Of a stretch of 47,953 nt of DNA, positions 33,176 to 44,165 are shown piece by piece. Made by a program: the position numbers and the translations under genes. Position 1 is the first letter of the stretch; each line of letters starts with the position of its first letter. The stretch spans positions 1 to 47,953 of the forward strand of contig JAHFRC010000005.1 of NCBI GenBank assembly GCA_023259015.1, written 5' to 3'. Origin of the DNA: Nitrosomonadales bacterium. Its GTDB lineage: Bacteria; Pseudomonadota; Gammaproteobacteria; Burkholderiales; Gallionellaceae. Under the pieces are notes generated by a model. It was given only the letters and a program-made list of their open reading frames with translations, searched no databases and was not told the DNA's origin.

Positions 33176-34798
33176 ATGCTGACCCTGCCGCTGGAACCCA
33201 CCGATGACCGTGCCAACCCCGCATTCAAGGACGCCGCCGGCTGCACGCAATGGCTGGGCCAGTTGCAACTTACCAACCTGCGCATGGCGCACGGAGTGCT
33301 ACGCACACAATTGGGCGAATTCAACCTTTACCCGATGCCAAACGCGGAACGCATGCACACCCTGGAACTGCTGCGCGAAACCGTATCCCACTTGCAGGCT
33401 GATTACGCCAAAAAACTGATCGCCAAGAAACTGCCATTGAATGAAGATGAATTTGCCATCCTTGCTTCTGTCGTTGGCATGTGGCAGGACATGGTTACCG
33501 GCTACCAGCGTTGCCTGCAAGGCTATGTGGCCGGGGATAAGCAACTTGCCGCATATGGCGCACTGTTGTGCCAACGCTGCCTGCTGTATAGCGGTTTGCA
33601 AATTTTTGAGCACCTGCGCAGCGGTTACGAATTTGACGGCAAATTGTGGTATCAACTGCATGCGCTGTATGCTTTCAGCGAAGAACAGGGTTTGCAACTC
33701 GAAGAAGTGGGCGATGGCCTGAGCGGCAACACCAATCCCACCTCATGCCGCGCAGCTTATGCCAAGCTCCTGCTTGCCTGTTATGCCTACCGCGCAGATT
33801 TGACGCGCAACCAGGTTCATCTGCTGGATCGCTGGTTGACGCAATGGAGTTCGAGCATCACCGTAGAGCGCACCTACGCCATGAGCAAGGGCGATGCCGC
33901 ACCGCTGGCGGTTGACTTGGGCAGCTTGCTGGGATTGCAGTCACTGCAGCAAGCTAGCCCGTCAGGCAACTTGTGTTATTTGGCGATGGCGCCGCTAGGC
34001 AAGTTGTTGCGCGTGAAAGCGGTTCTCTTGCAACAGGGGCAGTCACCCGAGCAGTTGGAGTTGGGCAAGGGATGCAACAGTGCAGATTGCGCCAAGTTTC
34101 TTGATTATCTGCTTAATTGCTGGTGCGAAGGCAGGGGCGGGCGCATGGCCGAGCGCGGCGATGTGCGGCAACAGGCACAGATATGCTGCGGGATGGAAAG
34201 CTGCTTTGCCTATATCGCCAACAGGCCGTTCAAACAGCCGGCCAGGGAAGCAAGCGTCGACACCCTCTCACGCAAGCAAATCGCTGCCTTTGGCCGTGTC
34301 TTGTCCGATACCGACCGCCCCGATCTGGCGGTGATGGGTTTTGTGCTTGAAAACTGGCAGATCCAGAATGAGAGCATCCTTGGCGCGCGCCTGTTGCGCG
34401 AGGAAAGCGCGGGCGTACGCCTCGGCCCAAACCAGCTCGTTGCGGTGCGCCCAACCAATGCCAATGCCTTCATGCTGGGCACGGTTAGCTGGGCCAGCGT
34501 CACCCAAACCGGACAGTTGCACATGGGGGTTCGCTACTTGCCCGGCTTGCCGCAAGCCGTCGCCATGCGGGCTACCGGAATCAATCTCAGCGTATCTGAC
34601 AAGTATGTCGCTGCCCTGCTGCTCCCCGCAGTTTCCGCTCTGAAAACCCCGGCCAGCCTGATTGCGCCGCGCGATTGGTTCAGGCCCGGCCGGGTGGTTG
34701 AAATTGTCCAGGTGGACAAGGTCAAGCTGAATGTAAAAATGGAACTCGGGGTAGAAAAGGGTTCGGACTATGAACGTATAAGCTTCTCTCAGGTTTAA
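33176..34798 (+). CDS. Uncharacterised 540-residue protein, possible C-terminal PilZ-like domain
   Basis: I do not recognise this gene with confidence. The N-terminal two-thirds is helix-rich, has no signal peptide or convincing membrane segment, and contains several cysteines (for instance NSADCAK, NCWCEG, QICCGMESC). The C-terminal 130 residues look like a beta-barrel: NQLVAVRPTNANAFMLGTVSWAS followed by MGVRYLPGLPQAVAMRAT. This resembles the W-x-x-x-x-G-V-x-Y pattern of PilZ-like regulators, although the usual RxxxR c-di-GMP motif is not evident. It starts 21 bases after the large oxidoreductase and may share its transcript. Confidence 0.7.
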   Translation: MLTLPLEPTDDRANPAFKDAAGCTQWLGQLQLTNLRMAHGVLRTQLGEFNLYPMPNAERMHTLELLRETVSHLQADYAKKLIAKKLPLNEDEFAILASVVGMWQDMVTGYQRCLQGYVAGDKQLAAYGALLCQRCLLYSGLQIFEHLRSGYEFDGKLWYQLHALYAFSEEQGLQLEEVGDGLSGNTNPTSCRAAYAKLLLACYAYRADLTRNQVHLLDRWLTQWSSSITVERTYAMSKGDAAPLAVDLGSLLGLQSLQQASPSGNLCYLAMAPLGKLLRVKAVLLQQGQSPEQLELGKGCNSADCAKFLDYLLNCWCEGRGGRMAERGDVRQQAQICCGMESCFAYIANRPFKQPAREASVDTLSRKQIAAFGRVLSDTDRPDLAVMGFVLENWQIQNESILGARLLREESAGVRLGPNQLVAVRPTNANAFMLGTVSWASVTQTGQLHMGVRYLPGLPQAVAMRATGINLSVSDKYVAALLLPAVSALKTPASLIAPRDWFRPGRVVEIVQVDKVKLNVKMELGVEKGSDYERISFSQV

Positions 34799-34928: not shown

Positions 34929-36914
34929 ATGAAGTATTTTTCCATAATAGCTTTCGTGTTGTTTTCGTTGGCCTGTTATGGGTGGGGGCGTGTACTCATC
35001 AGGCGCACATCCTTTAGTGGCAAGGATGTTTTTCCTTTCCTGGCGGTTGTCGGTATTGCCTGCCTGATTTTCCTGGGCGGGGTGCTGAACCTTGCCCGCT
35101 TTGCCTACCCGGTTGTATTGGGCATGCTGCTTTTGTCGGGACTGGTTTTCTTTGTTATCCATTGCTCGGCAAATACAGGAATGCGGCTAGCCGCAGGGTG
35201 TTCAGGCAGCCTGATAAACCCGGAAAAAACGGCACCCGCACCCGGGTATGTCTTGCCAGCCGGCATTCTGATTATTGCTGTTTGCTTTTATGCATGGACG
35301 TTGCTTCCGGCGGCAGCTTTCAATCACGATGACGATTTCCAAACCTACATACCAAGGGTGTTGCGGATGCTGCAGACCGGCACAATGGCGGGCAATCCGT
35401 TCGACGTGTTGGGCATAGACATAGGAGCCTTTGCTTTCCTGCAAGGTTTTGTCCTTCTCGGGTTGCCCATCGAATATCTGCTGGGTCTGGATGCGGTTTT
35501 TGGCTTTGCCCTTGCCGGATGGCTATTGCTTGCAATCGGCAGGAAATTTAACCTGCATTGGAGTTACACGGCATTTGCACTGCTTGCATTCATAGTCATC
35601 AATCCGCAATCCGTCAATGTTTCCGCGCTTTATACGGGTTCCGCCATAATCCTGGGGATGCTTTTCGCAAGTTGCCGCCTGCTTGACCAGATGGAAGAAT
35701 CCGGCAGCGATTCAAGCGCAATGATTTCAGCCGGAATATCAGGCCTGCTGCTGGCCGGTTTGATCGCTCTCAAGACTTCGTTCGCCAGTTATGCCTTTAC
35801 CTATTTCTTTTTTTTCTTCACCGGATTGTTGCTGACATCAAAAAACAAGCGGAAGGTTTTGAAGATATGCGGCCTCATCATGTTATGCGCGTTCGTGGCA
35901 ATATTGCCCTGGCTGGCGCTGCATGCCGCCAACTACTCGGCGGTCCTGCATTCCCCGGCTGCAGGAGCAGACAGCAAGCTTGCATTGCACAAAGGAAATA
36001 TACCCGGCCTGTTTGCCACAACCGACCTGATTTATGGCGGCTCGTTCTTGAGTTACGGAACAATTGTGTTGATGTTGTCCGTGGCGGGCTCCTATGCCTT
36101 GTACAATACCACTGGCAACAGGGTTGCGCCATTCCAACGCGGCTACCTTCTGGTTGCGGCGGCCTCTTGCGCGGCCGGCATCATCAGCTATTTTTTCACT
36201 GGATTCGTTGCCGCCCCGGAATTGGCAGTCCGTTATACCTGTCCCGTATTGATCGCCACATTTCCGTTTGCATTGCTGGCGGCGTCCATGGCAGCCTCCA
36301 GCAAGCTGCATCCCGCAAAAATACCCGCCTTGCTTGGCGTGAAGATGGCCCTGGTGCTGTCCATGCCTTTATTGATTGCCATCCTGTTCTGGAATAACTT
36401 CATGTCGCGTATTGAGCGGGCTTATCATTGGCACATGACGCTTTCGTACCCTATCAGCAATGCCTCAGTTGAACGCATCCGCTACGCAACCTCCCCTGAC
36501 ACTAGGCAGGTGATTCGCGGAGTACAGAGCCAGACCCTGCCGGCGCAGAAAATTCTTGTATGGATTTCCATGCCGGGGAATCTTGATTTTTCCAGGAATG
36601 AAATTTATTCCGTCAGGTCGGTTGGCCTGATAAATCCATGGATAGACATGCCGCTAAAGGGCAATGTTAACGACTTGGTCCAATACCTTAAGGGACTGGG
36701 AGTGCGCTACATCATGTGGGAATATAAAGGTGTTTATACCGAGGGAGAAATAAATTCATACAACAGATTCCTGCTTTACCCATACCAGGATTATCGCGAA
36801 ATTGGGCAGAGGTGTTTGAATTTGAGAAGCATGCTGTCCTCCCTAATGAAAGAAGCCAACTTTCTTTATAATGTGAATGGCTTGGTGTTATTCGATCTTC
36901 AACAGTTCAAATAG
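34929..36914 (+). CDS. Large polytopic membrane protein, possible GT-C type glycosyltransferase
   Basis: This 661-residue integral membrane protein has roughly a dozen hydrophobic segments in the first 490 residues and a soluble C-terminal part of about 160 residues. An acidic motif NHDDDFQTYIPRVLRML follows an early membrane segment at about residue 135, the position where GT-C enzymes keep catalytic or metal-binding acids. That and the adjacent polyprenyl-sugar-type GT2 gene suggest it uses a lipid-linked sugar in the periplasm. I cannot name a family. It opens the 34.9-43.0 kb locus; the 130-base spacer before it has no clear promoter. Confidence 0.65.
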   Translation: MKYFSIIAFVLFSLACYGWGRVLIRRTSFSGKDVFPFLAVVGIACLIFLGGVLNLARFAYPVVLGMLLLSGLVFFVIHCSANTGMRLAAGCSGSLINPEKTAPAPGYVLPAGILIIAVCFYAWTLLPAAAFNHDDDFQTYIPRVLRMLQTGTMAGNPFDVLGIDIGAFAFLQGFVLLGLPIEYLLGLDAVFGFALAGWLLLAIGRKFNLHWSYTAFALLAFIVINPQSVNVSALYTGSAIILGMLFASCRLLDQMEESGSDSSAMISAGISGLLLAGLIALKTSFASYAFTYFFFFFTGLLLTSKNKRKVLKICGLIMLCAFVAILPWLALHAANYSAVLHSPAAGADSKLALHKGNIPGLFATTDLIYGGSFLSYGTIVLMLSVAGSYALYNTTGNRVAPFQRGYLLVAAASCAAGIISYFFTGFVAAPELAVRYTCPVLIATFPFALLAASMAASSKLHPAKIPALLGVKMALVLSMPLLIAILFWNNFMSRIERAYHWHMTLSYPISNASVERIRYATSPDTRQVIRGVQSQTLPAQKILVWISMPGNLDFSRNEIYSVRSVGLINPWIDMPLKGNVNDLVQYLKGLGVRYIMWEYKGVYTEGEINSYNRFLLYPYQDYREIGQRCLNLRSMLSSLMKEANFLYNVNGLVLFDLQQFK

Positions 36915-37026
36915 CCCAACTCTGCTGGCTGAAGAGCATAGGCGCCCTTAAATCGTGTAAGATTCAAGTCGCGGTTCGCATTCTTCAATTTCTTTAAGTC
37001 GTTTTATAACCAGTGGATCCCATTCA

Positions 37027-38031
37027 TTGAAGCTGATTATACAAATCCCCTGCTTTAACGAGGCCGAAACCCTGGCCATAGCGCTGGCTGCCCTGCCGCG
37101 CCAAGTGACAGGTTTTGATAGCGTCGAATGGTTGATCATCGACGACGGCAGTCAGGACAGCACGGTGGAAGTAGCCAAAGCGAACGGTGCCGACCACATC
37201 GTTCGCCACGCCCGCAACCAAGGGCTGGCGCGTGCCTTCATGACCGGGTTGGATACCTGCCTGCGCCTGGGCGCCGACGTCATTGTTAATACTGATGCCG
37301 ACAATCAATATAACGCTGGCGACATTCCAAGCCTGACGGCGCCCATCGTTGCACATCGGGCAGATATCGTTGTCGGCGCACGGCCAATAGAAGCCATTGA
37401 ACACTTTTCTGTCGTGAAGAAACTGCTCCAGAAACTAGGCAGCTGGGTGGTGCGCGTTGCCAGCAAAACCGACATCCCTGATGCCCCCAGCGGCTTCCGT
37501 GCCATGAGCCGCACTGCGGCGCAGCGGTTAGTGGTTTTCAACGACTACACTTATACACTCGAAACCATCATCCAGGCAGGCCAGAAAAACATGGCCATCA
37601 CCTCGGTGCTTATCCGGGTAAACAAGGATTTGCGCCCTTCACGTCTGGTGAGGAGCATTCCGTCGTATATCACGCAAAGCATAGTCACCATAGCCAGAAT
37701 TTTCATCATCTACCGGCCATTCCGTTTTTTCGCCACCATTGGCGCTGTATTGTTTGGTGCAGGATTCCTGATCGGTTTGCGTTTCTTGTTTCACTACTTT
37801 AATGGTGAGGGCGGAGGCCATGTCCAATCGCTCATTCTGGCCGGGGCGCTGCTGCTGATGGGGTTCCAGACCTTCCTGGTGGCTTTTCTTGCAGATTTAC
37901 TGGCCGCCAACCGTAATTTAATTGAAGACATGCGGTTCCGGCTACGCGTTGGCGGGGAAACAGATGAAGGGTTGGATCATCCTGTTGATACAGGCAACGA
38001 AAGATCCATACCCTGCCGCAAGGTTTCCTGA
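37027..38031 (+). CDS. GT2 glycosyltransferase, polyprenyl-phosphate sugar synthase type
   Basis: This 334-residue family-2 glycosyltransferase has the DPM1/DPMS layout: nucleotide-sugar motifs IPCFNEAETL, IIDDGSQDST (Asp39, Asp40) and the DxD-like NTDADNQYN (Asp90, Asp92), an acceptor-loop GLARAFMTGLD, then two C-terminal membrane segments at about 235-255 and 270-295. Such enzymes attach a sugar to undecaprenyl phosphate at the cytoplasmic face. Translation appears to start at TTG 37027, since there is no in-frame ATG upstream and MKLIIQIPCFNE is the canonical N terminus. The stop abuts the GTG start of the next gene. Confidence 0.85.
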   Translation: MKLIIQIPCFNEAETLAIALAALPRQVTGFDSVEWLIIDDGSQDSTVEVAKANGADHIVRHARNQGLARAFMTGLDTCLRLGADVIVNTDADNQYNAGDIPSLTAPIVAHRADIVVGARPIEAIEHFSVVKKLLQKLGSWVVRVASKTDIPDAPSGFRAMSRTAAQRLVVFNDYTYTLETIIQAGQKNMAITSVLIRVNKDLRPSRLVRSIPSYITQSIVTIARIFIIYRPFRFFATIGAVLFGAGFLIGLRFLFHYFNGEGGGHVQSLILAGALLLMGFQTFLVAFLADLLAANRNLIEDMRFRLRVGGETDEGLDHPVDTGNERSIPCRKVS

Positions 38032-39114
38032 GTGCTTAAGGTTTTATTTATAACCCGAAAGTGGCCGCCAGCGGTGGGAGGTATGGAAACCTATTCCGTA
38101 GAACTGGCAAAAGAACTGAAAAAAATTGTTGAATTGAATATCCATTTTTTGCCCGGAAAAAAAAATGGCGCACCGCCGGGGATTATTTCAATTTTATTTT
38201 TTTTATTTACATCATTACTCCAATGCATAAAGAAAAGGGATGTCGATGTAATACATATGGGCGATATGGCGCTTTGGCCAATTGCAATGTTTGGCAGTAT
38301 TTTTAATAAGAAAACAAGTTTTGTTATTTCAGCGCACGGGACGGATATTGCTTACCATTTGAGAGCGGGTGTGTTTCCGTTTGTATATCGCTGGTATTTG
38401 GCTCTCGGTGCTTTGATAATGAAATCGCGTATCAAGGTAGTGGCCAACTCACATGCCACAGCGGCACATTGCAGGTTTCACGGGTTCGACAATGTTTACG
38501 TGGTGCCACTTGGTGTGAGAATGAACCGTGAGACCGGTTATTTTCAGCCATCTCCAGGCAATTATATTTTATTTGTTGGCCGGCTTGCGCGTCGCAAAGG
38601 GGCTGGCTGGTTCATTGAAAATGTCTTGCCGCAGTTGCCGGTGGAAATCTCCCTGAAAGTTGCAGGCACGGTTTGGGATGATGGGGAATTCACTGCAGTA
38701 AATGGCTCTTCGCGTGTCGAGTATCTGGGTCCGGTCTATGGTGATGAGCTCGCCGGATTAAGGCGTAATGCTATCGCGGTAATAATGCCAAACATCAACT
38801 GTGAAGGGCGGGATTTTGAAGGCTTCGGCTTAACCGCAATTGAGGCTGCCGCTGATGGCGCCGTATTAATCGCAAGTGGCATTGATGGCATTGTCGATGC
38901 TGTTATCGATGGGGTGAGTGGCTGGCTATTGCCAGCAGGGGATAGTGTTGCATGGAAAAATAAAATAGATGAAATTATGCATTGGGATGTGGATATGAAA
39001 ACAGGCTTTGTAATGAAAGCTCGTGCGGCTATTGCACAATTCTATTCTTGGGAACGCGTTGCGCGTGATACCTTGGATATCTACAGCAAGAGCATTCCAG
39101 GAGCTGCAGGGTAA
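38032..39114 (+). CDS. GT4-family glycosyltransferase
   Basis: This 360-residue GT-B-fold retaining glycosyltransferase has an N-terminal MLKVLFITRKWPPAVGGMET with the glycine-rich acceptor loop. Its C-terminal half has FVGRLARRKGAGWFIENV and the donor-binding EGFGLTAIEAAADG, whose Glu is the family's conserved residue. It starts at GTG immediately after the GT2 stop (TGAGTG), so the two are translated together. The gene is visibly AT-richer than the flanking housekeeping genes, especially 38.1-38.3 kb, which suggests a different origin. Donor and acceptor are unknown. Confidence 0.85.
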   Translation: MLKVLFITRKWPPAVGGMETYSVELAKELKKIVELNIHFLPGKKNGAPPGIISILFFLFTSLLQCIKKRDVDVIHMGDMALWPIAMFGSIFNKKTSFVISAHGTDIAYHLRAGVFPFVYRWYLALGALIMKSRIKVVANSHATAAHCRFHGFDNVYVVPLGVRMNRETGYFQPSPGNYILFVGRLARRKGAGWFIENVLPQLPVEISLKVAGTVWDDGEFTAVNGSSRVEYLGPVYGDELAGLRRNAIAVIMPNINCEGRDFEGFGLTAIEAAADGAVLIASGIDGIVDAVIDGVSGWLLPAGDSVAWKNKIDEIMHWDVDMKTGFVMKARAAIAQFYSWERVARDTLDIYSKSIPGAAG

Positions 39115-39230
39115 TTTATGTCCCCGGTAAAAAACCTGAGACTGCCTGGCCATCGTTCCGGAAGGATGAAACTATTTACCCCCGCTAACTTATTTGCACT
39201 CCCCAGGTTTTTTTCAAAGCAAAAGCCAAT

Positions 39231-39911
39231 ATGAAAGAATTGATAAAGAAGATTCCCATTGTTCGCTCTATAGCGCGGGTTATTTACTTTACTGCTGTTG
39301 CACCATTTAAATCATTTCCCGGCTCCAGAGATTACTGGAAACAGAGATACAGGTCAGGAGGCACCTCGGGTGCCGGCTCTTATGGCAGGCTTGCTCAATT
39401 CAAGGCAGAGATTATTAATGGAATCGTCAGGGAAAAACAGATTACAACCGTTATTGAATATGGCTGCGGAGACGGCAATCAACTCGGTTTTTCGGAATAT
39501 CCGCTATATATCGGATTTGACGTAAGCCAGGAGGCTATATCACGCTGCCAGCATCAATTCGCCAATGACAAGAAAAAAACTTTCAAGTTGATTGACGCAT
39601 ATACAAACGAAACTGCTCAACTAACCATCTCGCTGGACGTGATTTACCATTTGACTGAGGATGATGTTTTCAATACCTATATGAAGCGGCTCTTCGATTC
39701 TTCTACAGAATTAGTGATCATATACTCATCCGATACAGACAAGCAGTCAAGAGTCCAGGCTCCTCACGTAAAACATCGAAAATTTTCGAAATGGGTGGAA
39801 GAGAATAGACCTGAGTGGAAATTGATACGGCACATTCCTAACAGATATCCGTATGTTGATAATGAACAAGAGGAAACCTTCGCTGACTTTTACTTATATG
39901 CCAAGGCCTGA
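39231..39911 (+). CDS. SAM-dependent methyltransferase-like protein
   Basis: The 226-residue protein has a class-I methyltransferase core with motif I as VIEYGCGDGNQL (Gly78, Gly80, Gly82), an acidic position in FDVSQEAISRC (motif II), and LISLDV-like motif IV (SLDVIYHLTEDDVF). The N-terminal 40 residues resemble those of methyltransferases in glycan clusters (SFPGSRDYWKQRY). It is AT-rich like the previous gene. It may methylate a sugar or a lipid-linked precursor; the substrate is not shown by the sequence. Confidence 0.75.
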   Translation: MKELIKKIPIVRSIARVIYFTAVAPFKSFPGSRDYWKQRYRSGGTSGAGSYGRLAQFKAEIINGIVREKQITTVIEYGCGDGNQLGFSEYPLYIGFDVSQEAISRCQHQFANDKKKTFKLIDAYTNETAQLTISLDVIYHLTEDDVFNTYMKRLFDSSTELVIIYSSDTDKQSRVQAPHVKHRKFSKWVEENRPEWKLIRHIPNRYPYVDNEQEETFADFYLYAKA

Positions 39912-39977
39912 CAAATCGTCGCGCCTTCCGTTAATTGCGGAAGGATTGCAATGCCTTAAAACAAGGTGAAATTAAAT

Positions 39978-42017
39978 ATGAAAGATAAAATATTCTGGAT
40001 TGTTGCACCTGCCGTATTTGCCTATGGCGTATCAGCCATGGCGGCTGGTGAAGGGGCTGATCCAGACTCCCAATGGAGCCGGTCTCACGCAAGCTATTCG
40101 AGCAACAAATTCTCTTCCCTCGGCGCAATAAACATATCGAATGTAGCGCAGTTGGCGCCTGCATGGGAGTGGGATGAAGGAGGCGGCGAGCCTTCGGCGA
40201 GCGACACCGTCCAGGTTAACCCGATAATTGTGGATGGGTCGGTATTCACCACCACTTTAAGCGGCTTCCTTGTAAGCATCAATGCGCTAGATGGCAAGGA
40301 GAACTGGAGAACCAGGTTGCCTCCGCCGGTTGGCCGCAGGGGATTGACGTATGCAGAGGTAAGTTTAAAGGGAAAGGGTGTTTTCAAGGCGGTATTCACG
40401 CCTACTGCGCAAGGCATATATGCAATCGATTCAAAATCCGGGGCAATCCTGACGCAGCTCGGGAAGAACGGGGTTTACGGCGATAACTTGAGTCTCGTCG
40501 CGCCAGTGATTACCAAAGATTCGGTTTTAACGGCAACAATGTTTTCTACCATAGAGAGTTTTGACCTGGCCACAGGCAAAAAGAAGTGGTCGACCTCCCT
40601 GGTTAAGGATAAGGCTTATTCTTACAAGGCTTCGGTATGGTCTGGCATATCTTATGATGCAAAAAGAAACGCGATGTACATAAGTACCGGAGACCCGGGA
40701 GGAATGTTGGTCGGGATCGACCGGCCAGGAGATAATTTATATGCAAATAGCCTGGTTGCGATAGATACCGGCTCCGGCAAAATCAAGTGGCATGTTCAGA
40801 TAGTAAGTCACGACCTGTGGGATCTCGATGTGGTCGGCCCGCCGATTCTTTCAACACTGAAGCCGGGGCGCAAAAAAACTGATGTGGTTATCGCGGTTAC
40901 CAAATCAGGCGATACTCTGGTTGTAAATAGAGATACGGGGAAATTCATATTCGACAATAGTTATAGGGCCTATCCCCGTTCAGACTTGAAAGGCGAGACT
41001 GCTGCCAAACATCAACTGCATGTTGATTGGCCGCAAAGTTTTTCTTCCCTCGTATTCACCCCGGACATGGTTACTGATATCTCGGCGGAAGATCATGACT
41101 ATGTCATGTTCAAGTTGAGAAATGCCAGGTATGGCCCGTTTCTTCCCCCTTCCTTAGCTTATTCCGTTGCCTTGTTCGGGTTGCATGGCGGCGCAGAGTG
41201 GCCTGGAGCCGCCTATGACCCAGGCAAGGAGATTCTGGTTGTCCCGTCAAATAGCGTTCCATGGATATTGAGGCTCGAGTACCATGAGAAGAGCAGGTTT
41301 CTCGATCTGGACAAAATAAAAAACAACAGGCTGTACCAGGGAAAATGCGCTGCATGCCATGGCAAGTTTCGTCAGGGTTATCACGGGGACAATCACAGGA
41401 ATGACGTTTATTATCCGCCCCTGGTAGGCTTGACAGTCCGCAAAGCCGACCCGCTCCCGGGATTGCAGGATTTTCGTGCAAATCACCAGTACGTTGAAAA
41501 AGAGACCCAAACGGTTAGTGAAAATGACCTGGCTCCCCTGGCTGAGTATTTCAGGACTCTCGATTCGATGCAAAAAGAGAATTTGAAGGTAGCCGGGTTT
41601 TGGCAAATGGTGCTTGATACCAATGGCCTGCCCGGATCAAAACCACCTTATGGGAACCTGACAGCAATAAGCCTGAAGACCGGCAAGATTGCGTGGCAGG
41701 TTCCTTTCGGTGAGTATGGTGCGCCGGTTAAAGGAAAGAAAATTAAAGGGCAGCAGAATTTTGGCGGCGCCATCATTACCGGCTCCGGGGTGATATTTGC
41801 CACTGGCACCGTTGACAACAAGATACGGGCATTTAATGAAGAGAATGGAGAGGAGCTTTGGTCTTATACGATGCTGGCTGCCGGATCCGCACCCCCGTCA
41901 ACTTTCATGGTCAATGGGGAACAATACGTGGTGGTCAATTGCACGGGTGGACGATATACAGACTTTTCTGCCAACAAGAAAAAATTGATCGCATTCAAGC
42001 TAAAGCAAAAACAATAA
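39978..42017 (+). CDS. Exported PQQ-dependent dehydrogenase with inserted cytochrome c domain
   Basis: This quinohemoprotein has about 679 residues and a signal peptide (to about AMAA, residue 23). It has a beta-propeller with repeated W-motifs (GKKKWSTSL, GKIKWHVQI, GKIAWQVPF). The catalytic segment HDLWDLDVVGPPIL (Asp282, Asp284) resembles that of membrane glucose-dehydrogenase-type enzymes. A class-I cytochrome c domain with CAACH (457-461) sits between propeller blades, a known arrangement in one quinoprotein group. The ATG at 39978 is chosen because AAGGTG lies 10 bases upstream. No vicinal Cys-Cys pair, typical of methanol dehydrogenases, is present. The substrate is unknown, probably a sugar or alcohol. 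No pqq genes are in the window. Confidence 0.85.
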   Translation: MKDKIFWIVAPAVFAYGVSAMAAGEGADPDSQWSRSHASYSSNKFSSLGAINISNVAQLAPAWEWDEGGGEPSASDTVQVNPIIVDGSVFTTTLSGFLVSINALDGKENWRTRLPPPVGRRGLTYAEVSLKGKGVFKAVFTPTAQGIYAIDSKSGAILTQLGKNGVYGDNLSLVAPVITKDSVLTATMFSTIESFDLATGKKKWSTSLVKDKAYSYKASVWSGISYDAKRNAMYISTGDPGGMLVGIDRPGDNLYANSLVAIDTGSGKIKWHVQIVSHDLWDLDVVGPPILSTLKPGRKKTDVVIAVTKSGDTLVVNRDTGKFIFDNSYRAYPRSDLKGETAAKHQLHVDWPQSFSSLVFTPDMVTDISAEDHDYVMFKLRNARYGPFLPPSLAYSVALFGLHGGAEWPGAAYDPGKEILVVPSNSVPWILRLEYHEKSRFLDLDKIKNNRLYQGKCAACHGKFRQGYHGDNHRNDVYYPPLVGLTVRKADPLPGLQDFRANHQYVEKETQTVSENDLAPLAEYFRTLDSMQKENLKVAGFWQMVLDTNGLPGSKPPYGNLTAISLKTGKIAWQVPFGEYGAPVKGKKIKGQQNFGGAIITGSGVIFATGTVDNKIRAFNEENGEELWSYTMLAAGSAPPSTFMVNGEQYVVVNCTGGRYTDFSANKKKLIAFKLKQKQ

Positions 42018-42056
42018 CCCGGGTATTTCAATGAGGCGGCAAGGTTGCGGAACCTA

Positions 42057-43001
42057 ATGGCAAATAAGCACTTGTTGCGTTTGTTGGGCTGGCTATTCCT
42101 ATGCCTGGTTATTTATAGCATAGCCGGAATCATATCTGGAATTGACTTCGGATCGATTCTTCTGTTCGATAGAAAATTGGTTCTCCAGGCCTCCCTGTTC
42201 AAATTTTTCATGTGGATTATCTCCATGCTCCTTTTGTGTCTCGCTTGGCGATACTGTGTCTATTTGGTCACCGGGAAAAAATACAACCTGCCCATGCTGT
42301 CAAGGGTTTATTTGGTTTCTAATATCGGCAAATACTTGCCGGGCAACATTTTCAATTACGCCAGCCGCTCTTATCTCATGCTTTCCGAAGATATCGGGAA
42401 AAGGCAAGTGGTTGCGAGCAGCCTGGTGGAAGTGGTGCTGAGCGTGGTCTCGAATTCTCTCATGGTCGCGCTATCATGCGGGCTTCTAATGATCCTTGCG
42501 CCAAGCCATTTAAAAGGTTTGCTACCCGAGATTCCTGTTAACAGGTGGGAGCAGGCATTGCTTCTTGTCTTGATCGTGCTTATTGCGGGGGTTGTGCTAT
42601 GCAGCAGATGGAAGCACAAGATCATGGGCTATTTGCGCAGCATCATTCCACACCAGGATTTGCTGCGCCCCACAATAAGCATATTAGCCATATACGCCAT
42701 TATTTTCCTTGTTGAAGGAGGCAGTTATTATTTCATAACACTGATTCTCTCTGGCAATGAAGCGTTGTTTGTCGATGGGTTGCTGGCTATTTCCGTATTC
42801 GGGCTTGCAGCTTTGGTAGGATTCCTGACACCGGGGCTTCCTGCCGGAATAGGTGTCAGGGAGGGACTGGCGCTCTTATGGTTAAGCGGGAGCTTCCCCG
42901 CACCGATAATTTTATTGGCATTGGTGATTTGCAGGGTTTCTGCGCTATTCGCAGATGGGATTCTTTTTTTTGCAGCCCGCTTGGCATCGGAAAGCAAATA
43001 A
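42057..43001 (+). CDS. Flippase-like membrane protein (LPG synthase transmembrane/UPF0104 family)
   Basis: This protein of about 314 residues has around eight membrane segments and the family motif NIGKYLPGNIFNYASRSY near residue 90, plus a conserved GFLTPGLPAGIGVREG near 265. The family includes AglD-like and MprF N-terminal-type proteins, proposed to flip or modify lipid-linked substrates. The ATG at 42057 is preferred to a TTG at 42045. It starts 39 bases after the PQQ dehydrogenase and ends the glycan-type locus. Moving a lipid-linked sugar is the most plausible job here, by context only. Confidence 0.78.
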   Translation: MANKHLLRLLGWLFLCLVIYSIAGIISGIDFGSILLFDRKLVLQASLFKFFMWIISMLLLCLAWRYCVYLVTGKKYNLPMLSRVYLVSNIGKYLPGNIFNYASRSYLMLSEDIGKRQVVASSLVEVVLSVVSNSLMVALSCGLLMILAPSHLKGLLPEIPVNRWEQALLLVLIVLIAGVVLCSRWKHKIMGYLRSIIPHQDLLRPTISILAIYAIIFLVEGGSYYFITLILSGNEALFVDGLLAISVFGLAALVGFLTPGLPAGIGVREGLALLWLSGSFPAPIILLALVICRVSALFADGILFFAARLASESK

Positions 43002-43103
43002 TTTTTTGCTGCGCCTGAATATGACGTTATACGCATGACAATATTTTGCAGCCCTGCCCGCCGGTTCCGGTTGCCGGGCAAAGCCCGCCCTGCGCATTGT
43101 TTC

Positions 43104-44165
43104 ATGCGCGCCCTGTTGTTCTGCCTGGCAACATTCATATTTGGACATACCGCAAACGCCGAAGGCGTGCTGCACCTCTACAACTGGAACAACTACATCT
43201 CGGATGAGACGGTTGCGCGTTTCGAAGCGCAGTGTGCATGCCGGGTGATGCAGGACTATTACTCCGACAACGAAGAGATGCTCGCCAAATTGGCGGCGGG
43301 CGCGACCGGCTACGACATCATTGTGCCAACCGGTAATGCAATGGAATCGCTTATCCGGCAAAAGGCGTTGCGTCCGCTCGACAAATTCAGGTTGCCCAAC
43401 CTGAAGAACATCAACCCCGTTTATCTCAACACGGCATTTGATCCGGGCAACCGCTTTTCTGTACCGTATGCCTACACCATCACGCTGATCGGCTATAACG
43501 CCGAGAAAATGCGCGAACTGGCGCTACCCACCGACACATGGGCGGTGATCTTCGAGCCAAAATATCTGGGCAAGGTGAAAGGCCGCGTCACCGTGCTCGA
43601 TTCGCAACGCGAACTGATGGCGGCGGCATTGAAATACCTCGGCTATTCGGCCAATGACACCGATGAGGCGCACTGGAAGCAGGCGCGCGACCTGATTATC
43701 CGCGCCAAGCCCTATTGGGCGGCGTTCAACGCGTCGAGTTACATCAAGGAACTGACTGTAGGCAACATCTGGCTGGTGCACGGCTATTCCAACGATATTT
43801 TCCAAGCCAACCTCGACGCGCAAAAAGCCGGCAGGAAATTCAGCCTGGTTTCCAGCATACCGAAAGAGGGTGCAACCCTGTCGCTCGATTCCATGGTGCT
43901 GCACAAAGCCGGGCCGCGCCCCGATCTTGCGTTCCGCTTCATCAACTTCATGCTGGACGGCAAGAACTCTGCGGAGCTTACCAACCTGATCGGCTCCGGC
44001 AATCCAAATATGGATGCGATGCACTACATCAAAGCGGAAATCGCGCAAAACCCGGCTATCTTTCCCGATGCGCAACATCAGGCAAATCTGGAAATGCTGC
44101 GCGATCTTGACCGTAACCAGCGGCGCATGCTGTCGCGCATGTGGACTGAAATCAAACTGCGATAG
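43104..44165 (+). CDS. Polyamine-type ABC transporter periplasmic binding protein (PotD/PotF-like)
   Basis: This 353-residue binding protein has a signal peptide (MRALLFCLATFIFGHTANA) and the PotD/PotF family start VLHLYNWNNYISDETVARFE. Other typical stretches are GYDIIVPTGNAMESLIRQ and FSVPYAYTITLIGYNAEKM. The ATG at 43104 is chosen because it begins the signal peptide; the frame is open to 43035. No permease or ATPase genes accompany it, so it is either an orphan component or works with a transporter encoded elsewhere. It is convergent with ppx. Confidence 0.87.
   Translation: MRALLFCLATFIFGHTANAEGVLHLYNWNNYISDETVARFEAQCACRVMQDYYSDNEEMLAKLAAGATGYDIIVPTGNAMESLIRQKALRPLDKFRLPNLKNINPVYLNTAFDPGNRFSVPYAYTITLIGYNAEKMRELALPTDTWAVIFEPKYLGKVKGRVTVLDSQRELMAAALKYLGYSANDTDEAHWKQARDLIIRAKPYWAAFNASSYIKELTVGNIWLVHGYSNDIFQANLDAQKAGRKFSLVSSIPKEGATLSLDSMVLHKAGPRPDLAFRFINFMLDGKNSAELTNLIGSGNPNMDAMHYIKAEIAQNPAIFPDAQHQANLEMLRDLDRNQRRMLSRMWTEIKLR

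Follow-up and report, generated by a model that had tools for sequence, protein, structure and literature searches.

Three-component systems for extracytoplasmic glycosylation are described, in the portion of PMC11127046 consulted, as a GtrA/GtrB/Gtr type and a MATE/GT136 type. In archaea, genes for COG0392/UPF0104 proteins, AglD-like glycosyltransferases and PMT/STT3-like proteins lie together in neighborhoods, and the excerpted text of PMC5898192 predicts COG0392 to be the flippase of a lipid-linked saccharide. The window studied here, a stretch of 47,953 nucleotides from a Nitrosomonadales bacterium of the Gallionellaceae, resembles the systems of PMC11127046, as excerpted, in that one module encodes a GT2 akin to DPM synthase together with a candidate flippase and a transferase labeled GT-C-like. 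Among these genes lies one for a quinoprotein. We lean, with moderate confidence, toward reading the locus as a mosaic glycosylation island joined by a separately acquired periplasmic quinohemoprotein that possibly uses scavenged PQQ, and not as one six-gene pathway.

Gene content and composition of the island

Six uninterrupted open reading frames lie on the + strand at positions 34929–43001, separated in order by 112, 0, 116, 54 and 27 bp, and the single strand and short spacers described in an earlier note on this DNA are borne out. The six genes are a low-GC island, with GC3 values of 0.43–0.63 compared with 0.67–0.80 for the 18 further genes that were measured in the window. Two layers of composition are present within it, as the GT-C and GT2 genes have values of 0.60 and 0.63 and the remaining four 0.43–0.57. 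The left border is formed by a conserved 540-aa core-genome protein without a Pfam match (33176–34798, +; 76–81% identity in three congeners), and the right border by a PotF-like periplasmic binding protein (43035–44165, +; 86–87% identity in three congeners), whose GC3 of 0.716 is that of the core genome. The + strand run extends into this core binding-protein gene, which begins 33 bp downstream of the sixth gene. Promoter-like sites were rarer than in shuffled sequences (5 versus 11.3), and terminator-like sites were about as frequent (14 versus 12.8). In the congeners G001–G003, the 6.8–9.1 kb beside the 540-aa gene gave no match to the island genes. The source genome is 73% complete.

The first gene (34929–36914, +) encodes a polytopic membrane protein of 661 aa. 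It is labeled GT-C-like solely for its 12 predicted transmembrane segments and for a DDD motif in its N-terminal part, at residue 134; searches of Pfam and of PDB sequences gave nothing significant, and no named GT family could be linked to it by sequence. Its AlphaFold2 model, built from a two-row alignment, reached a pLDDT of 37, and a second model of the analysis, also from a two-row alignment, reached 41; both are too poor for naming a fold. The second gene product (37027–38031, +), which is dolichyl-phosphate-mannose-synthase-like, is, as judged from its sequence, a polyprenyl-phosphate sugar synthase of the GT2/DPMS type. It matches PF00535 (E 2e-22) and, by phmmer, DPM synthase 5mlz (E 2.5e-11), has two C-terminal transmembrane segments, and also found ArnC-type chains in the PDB search. 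The third gene (38032–39114, +) encodes a GT4 glycosyltransferase with PF13692, PF00534 and PF13439 above their cut-offs. The fourth product (39231–39911, +) is a putative SAM-dependent methyltransferase, which matches PF13847 below the cut-off (E 2e-4) and has plasmid relatives that are 46–50% identical; the two inspected (about 47%, from Pantoea and Sinorhizobium) both adjoin glycosyltransferases.

The fifth gene (39966–42017, +) encodes a beta-propeller of the quinoprotein type that is predicted to be exported and is interrupted by a cytochrome c-like insert, and the sixth (42045–43001, +) a distant COG0392/UPF0104 (LPG_synthase_TM) flippase-like membrane protein with 7 predicted transmembrane segments. 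The latter has no significant Pfam match of its own. It has relatives in the genomes G042 (E 1.5e-13) and G013 (E 2e-7), and PF03706 is matched by the G013 homologue and by the counterpart in G439. None of the six island proteins matched GtrA or MATE; the candidate flippase is instead COG0392/PF03706-like. At E 1e-3 the GT-C-like protein had no plasmid or phage match and the flippase-like protein no plasmid match, and such an origin was dropped for both; GT4 had no plasmid match at 1e-20.

Putative glycosylation loci in related genomes

Homologues of the GT-C-like protein occur in 4 of 158 family genomes, with identities of 57% in G013, 58% in G439 and 43% in G463. GT-C-like, GT2 and COG0392-type proteins are co-located in three of the four GT-C loci, with differing partners, and the G463 locus has the GT-C-like protein without the other two. 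The recurrence is one of protein kinds and not of orthologues, because the GT2 of G439 is only 31% identical to that of the window and its flippase has no BLAST match to the window's. The nearest locus, that of G013, sits at the same chromosomal place beside the 540-aa core gene, with a GT2 (70% identical) adjoining the GT-C gene, and its partners are two methyltransferases and a GT4 that are not orthologous to the window's. In G439 the partner is a UDP-sugar dehydrogenase. A scan of a genome collection with the GT-C pair returned a single match, G013, using a few short peptide patterns that can miss relatives.

These loci, together with their resemblance to described systems, support the part of the earlier note that proposed a lipid-linked, flipped sugar. 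From the gene content we infer that GT2 would charge polyprenyl phosphate with a sugar, that the COG0392-type protein would move the charged lipid across the inner membrane, and that the GT-C-like protein would transfer the sugar to a periplasmic acceptor. GT4 and the methyltransferase, which are lower in GC, may be swappable genes for cytoplasmic decoration or capping. The locus thus suggests that extracytoplasmic glycosylation modules exchange parts at one chromosomal site among related bacteria.

The same comparison weakens the other part of that proposal, in which the dehydrogenase belongs to the glycan pathway. In G013 no quinoprotein match was found at E<=1e-3 across the whole 99%-complete genome, and none was present at the GT-C loci of G439 and G463, of which 14 and 18 kb, respectively, were covered. 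The search for the same six-gene order thus ended with three other GT-C loci, none with a quinoprotein as far as read, and a conserved six-gene system was rejected. The absence at the G013 locus is of the kind that the earlier note had named as telling against its proposal, although this locus is not otherwise identical, its GT4 and methyltransferases being non-orthologous. The dehydrogenase looks like a separate passenger because these related gene sets lack a quinoprotein. Its gene lies between those of the methyltransferase and the flippase with short spacers, a position that favors shared expression and counts against the passenger reading.

An integrated pathway, in which the island makes and flips a lipid-linked sugar and the quinohemoprotein oxidizes that same sugar (free, lipid-linked or on the surface glycan) in the periplasm and passes electrons to the respiratory chain, would fit the one-strand run with its short spacers, the same-side topology implied by the export signal and the CxxCH motif, and a PQQ importer encoded in the genome. 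We consider it unlikely, given that the quinoprotein is missing from all three other GT-C loci within the stretches covered and that the neighborhoods of its relatives are of another kind. No glycosyltransferase was found near quinoprotein relatives in eight of eight loci, as far as neighbors were annotated or partly scanned with Pfam. Six of these are plasmid loci, chosen from 37 records with a near full-length match and examined over 5–8 kb flanks with the incomplete gene tables of PLSDB (two of the six relatives, from Agrobacterium and Novosphingobium, lack CxxCH); at the other two, in G858 and G670, 10 and 7 neighbor proteins were scanned, not every open reading frame. Relatives in Spirosoma, Emticicia and Sphingobium do have genes annotated as Gfo/Idh/MocA oxidoreductase, aldo/keto reductase or oxidoreductase within a few kilobases, which hints at sugar-type substrates and would favor an integrated pathway.

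The quinoprotein and its possible supply of PQQ

The quinoprotein is the sole match in its own genome, and of the 399 genomes of the order none of the remaining 398 gave a match at E<=1e-40. A scan of the genome collection, again with a few short peptide patterns that can miss relatives, found nothing, and a scan of viral contigs gave one relative, L070, at 25%. The frame of 683 codons is intact, inspection and hydropathy show an N-terminus that resembles a signal peptide, and a single CxxCH is located at 461. The propeller domain is assigned by PF01011 (E 2e-107; 361 bits, cut-off 26.7) and by alignment. Scores against TIGR03074 (254.7 bits) and TIGR03075 (179.5 bits) lie under the respective cut-offs of 832.65 and 480.05.

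In the alignment the active-site Asp, Lys, Trp and Arg are retained, including the equivalents of E. coli Gcd D466 and K493, which we take to be the catalytic Asp and a PQQ-contacting Lys. The loop around D354/N355 of E. coli Gcd, presumably the metal-ligand loop, is a gap in the window protein, and two neighboring loops are also shortened. The heme segment 489–531 contains no Met, and the MPxF-type Met present in 6/6 aligned CxxCH relatives is missing. The protein thus appears to have the CxxCH motif of a class I cytochrome c without its Met axial ligand. The exported PQQ-cytochrome c dehydrogenase of the earlier note is consistent with the signal-like N-terminus, PF01011 and CxxCH, but a working PQQ and cytochrome c route is uncertain, as the protein has neither the metal loop nor the axial-Met motif and the search for PQQ synthesis came up empty. 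The protein may fail to bind PQQ or to act as a usual cytochrome c, and the two losses also count against an integrated pathway.

These losses would follow if the quinoprotein were degenerate or repurposed, its propeller in the periplasm no longer binding PQQ (structural, binding or decaying), a reading comparable to the "acido-empty-quinoprotein" idea. When each cytochrome-bearing relative was left out in turn, the window protein was the outlier, keeping 74 of 118 otherwise invariant positions where the five others kept 74 of 79–90, in a six-member set that omitted G858, although G858 has CxxCH. Among the 11 proteins of a broader set, from which G670 was excluded, the window protein kept 36/48 and E. 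coli Gcd hardly more (36/45); counts of this type also fall with distance by itself. The group A model of this idea, TIGR04528, was matched with 161.9 bits, far under its curated cut-off of 650, and a literature search for "empty quinoprotein" found none. The retained site residues, the intact frame with its export signal and CxxCH, and a PqqU homologue in the same genome argue against degeneration. The Spirosoma relative, which is gapped at the metal-ligand loop too and lacks the acidic metal residue, indicates that the change may be tolerated. We regard this explanation as rather unlikely.

PqqC was absent from all 36 family genomes searched, this one included, and PqqB gave only sub-threshold matches; the absence of PqqC would also suit a degenerate protein. 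PqqC was likewise not found in two complete genomes that encode quinoprotein relatives, G858 and G670, whose PqqU matches are not close (24%, and 36% over part). These relatives may live without PQQ because they have neither PqqC nor a close PqqU. Of the seven family genomes tested, only the present one yielded a full-length PQQ importer of the PqqU type (E 2e-170; 43% along the whole protein). It carries the published signature residues F99/R304/R365; the check covered this genome, G002 and G858, of which the latter two fail, and the matches in G463 and G670 are partial. One genome in seven is too few for a correlation, and mis-binning is possible because the gene sits on a contig of only 3,651 bp. 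The importer keeps PQQ use possible, and a passenger quinohemoprotein exported to the periplasm would probably oxidize a sugar, glycoside or alcohol with PQQ scavenged via this PqqU, encoded elsewhere in the genome.

Recruitment by the glycosylation cassette of a quinohemoprotein with a changed heme ligand, oxidizing the flipped or transferred sugar in the periplasm with PQQ imported by a co-acquired PqqU, seems to us quite improbable. Any link between quinoprotein and glycan is hypothetical; an enzyme that did act on the glycan would represent surface-sugar modification of a new kind.

Relation to described systems

Literature searches on PQQ or quinoproteins in combination with glycan loci, on cytochrome-bearing or PQQ-less quinoproteins and on GT-C/flippase systems gave, among the matches listed, no described glycan locus like that of the window. 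The quinoprotein itself has the same order of propeller, CxxCH insert and last propeller strands as the PF01011 quinoproteins of Spirosoma (WP_232563247.1), Emticicia (WP_015026272.1) and Sphingobium (BDX59929.1). It is 31–34% identical to them and shares the Asp and Lys common to all, but it lacks the metal-ligand loop (as, in part, does Spirosoma) and the MPxF-type Met, and the neighborhoods differ.

PqqU-dependent scavenging, as described in the part of PMC12124388 available, is similar in that PqqC is absent and a quinoprotein occurs alongside a PqqU homologue that bears the signature residues, whereas the window quinoprotein is a divergent, putative PQQ enzyme. The same excerpts report PqqU carriers without PQQ enzymes in Nitrosomonadaceae. 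With no PqqC in 36 family genomes and one genome with both quinoprotein and PqqU homologue, the family offers a test case for PQQ scavenging.

In contrast to the three-component systems in the excerpts of PMC11127046, the window has a COG0392-like candidate flippase in place of GtrA or MATE and a GT-C-like protein that no search tied by sequence to a named family, and it adds a GT4, a methyltransferase and the quinoprotein. The archaeal neighborhoods are related to N-glycosylation, and the consulted text of PMC5898192 mentions no quinoprotein, whereas the window is bacterial and encodes one. The same three kinds of protein stand together in those archaeal neighborhoods, as excerpted, and in the window.

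Island layout and borders

The six island genes (34929–43001), encoding a GT-C-like protein, a GT2, a GT4, a methyltransferase, a quinoprotein and a flippase-like protein, all lie on the + strand, with successive spacers of 112, 0, 116, 54 and 27 bp. The coordinates thus bear out the one-strand run with short spacers (0–116 bp) described in the earlier note. The island is visible by its base composition, with a GC3 of 0.43–0.63 as against 0.67–0.80 in the 18 other window genes measured. Its left border is a 540-aa core-genome protein with no Pfam match (33176–34798; 76–81% identity in three congeners), and its right border is the core gene of a PotF-like binding protein (43035–44165; 86–87% in the same congeners). 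Because the PotF-like gene starts 33 bp past the flippase gene, a possible operon may extend beyond the sixth gene. The right border looks rearranged relative to the congeners, since there the PotF-like homologue and the 540-aa gene are on separate contigs, and the homologue seems, by eye, to follow transport-type genes (L051–L053).

Of 22 further family genomes searched, 16 have the 540-aa protein near full length, at 42–81% identity. In the congeners, it is followed by phoR (assigned by profile in G003 and by likeness in G001 and G002), and the 6.8–9.1 kb read there contain no match to island genes. In G017, hsdM and hsdR occupy the same interval. The cargo beside phoR or the 540-aa gene varies by genus (L050 4551–12344; L046 8919–17728; L039; window 34929–43001) and includes type I restriction-modification genes, a TonB-receptor-like gene and glycan genes. 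The interval looks like a cargo-exchange site, resembling an insertion hotspot.

The quinoprotein and its possible PQQ supply

The quinoprotein is a single match in its own genome (73% complete). Among 399 genomes of the order, no other match was found at E ≤ 1e-40; in an overlapping sample of 398 phylum genomes, E 1e-45 was reached solely by its own genome and the complete genomes G858 and G670. The closest near full-length relatives seen, one on a Spirosoma plasmid and one in G858, share 33% identity with it. No glycosyltransferase occurs among the annotated or partly Pfam-scanned neighbours of eight relatives; annotated neighbours of some include a Gfo/Idh/MocA oxidoreductase, an aldo/keto reductase and a sugar dehydrogenase. 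A ninth, cytochrome-bearing relative, read for ORFs alone (L070 7956–10313, IMGVR_UViG_3300032160_001515; 25%), lies on a contig classed as viral and adjoins two long ORFs that are tail-like by eye.

When the protein is aligned with E. coli Gcd and a further ten proteins, the active-site Asp, Lys, Trp and Arg are kept, the loop bearing the Gcd metal-ligand residues is missing, and two adjacent loops are short. The missing loop is not decisive, because a gap falls at the acidic metal residue in the Spirosoma relative as well. The internal cytochrome segment carries CxxCH and lacks the MPxF-type Met motif present in all six aligned CxxCH relatives. The translation has no Met within residues 489–531, and His507 is a possible substitute heme ligand. 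By leave-one-out count, 118 positions are invariant in its five cytochrome-bearing relatives, and the protein keeps 74 of these; each relative, counted in the same way, keeps 74 of 79–90. In the wider set (n = 11), it keeps 36/48, hardly below the 36/45 of E. coli Gcd, so the loss of conservation is partly plain distance.

An empty quinoprotein was first suggested by the lack of PQQ synthesis proteins. At the profile cut-off, PqqC is absent from all 36 family genomes and present in 6 of 24 other order genomes; PqqB exceeds it in 2 of 37 genomes, both outside the family, with weak sub-threshold matches in the window's own genome (G000) and the congeners. PqqC was likewise not found in G858 or G670, which hold quinoprotein relatives. 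A query with E. coli PqqU, the TonB-dependent PQQ importer, returned a full-length homologue in G000 (G000:C80:1377–3440, locus L072; 43% identity, E 2e-170). The three congeners gave no comparable match; in all, the six other family genomes tested, G858 and G670 gave none or matches of 24–36%, some partial. The homologue carries F99, R304 and R365, the PqqU signature according to PMC12124388, plus K274 and R536; the signature was not found in the matches from G002 and G858. Since its contig spans 3,651 bp, mis-binning is possible; the composition is host-like (GC3 0.69). The same source reports PqqU without PQQ enzymes in Nitrosomonadaceae. On this evidence, the chances that the window quinoprotein uses scavenged PQQ are roughly even.

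Sister loci and a proposed scheme

The first gene encodes a protein with 12 predicted TM segments and, behind the fourth of them, an acidic motif. A putative GT-C-like assignment is reasonable, but neither profile searches nor a low-confidence structure model gave proof of GT-C identity. The GT2 is a DPM-synthase-type enzyme by sequence (profile match, PDB sequence search, predicted TM segments), and the GT4 assignment is clear from Pfam profiles. The methyltransferase has a weak Pfam match and plasmid relatives at 46–50% identity; the two examined (~47%) lie downstream of glycosyltransferases in Pantoea and Sinorhizobium, the latter region also holding capsule genes. The flippase-like protein belongs, distantly, to the COG0392/PF03706 type, as its homologue in G013 shows.

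The GT-C-like protein occurs in 4 of 158 family genomes. In G013 (JACQFX010000019.1, a MAG assigned to Nitrosomonadales whose isolate name includes 'groundwater'), it is 57% identical to that of the window, its adjoining GT2 is 70% identical, and the locus borders on phoR and on the 540-aa core gene that also flanks the island in the window. Running opposite to the GT-C-like gene are genes for a flippase of COG0392 type, a GT4 and two methyltransferases; a search of this genome found no quinoprotein match at E ≤ 1e-3. The G439 locus combines the GT-C-like protein with a UDP-sugar dehydrogenase, a GT2 sharing only 31% identity with that of the window, and a COG0392-type protein that is truncated where the contig stops and has no BLAST match to the window's flippase-like protein. 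At the G463 locus, no GT2 or flippase match accompanies the GT-C-like protein. The quinoprotein is absent from the 14 kb (G439) and 18 kb (G463) read around this gene. The GT-C-like protein, GT2 and flippase thus recur by kind in three of the four loci, the remaining genes being swappable. The earlier note had suggested a candidate new system in which a lipid-linked sugar is made inside, flipped, and oxidised or used outside; comparison with other loci lends no support to the less likely reading of the six genes as one new glycan-oxidation system.

Most likely, the GT2 would charge a lipid with sugar, the COG0392 protein would flip the charged lipid, and the GT-C-like protein would transfer the sugar outside. 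The GT4 and methyltransferase may serve decoration, and the quinohemoprotein would be a periplasmic passenger acting on some sugar or alcohol. The locus is a modest variation on a known kind of system, with one curious enzyme added. The GT2, flippase and GT-C-like scheme resembles the three-component systems described in PMC11127046 and the archaeal neighbourhoods described in PMC5898192.
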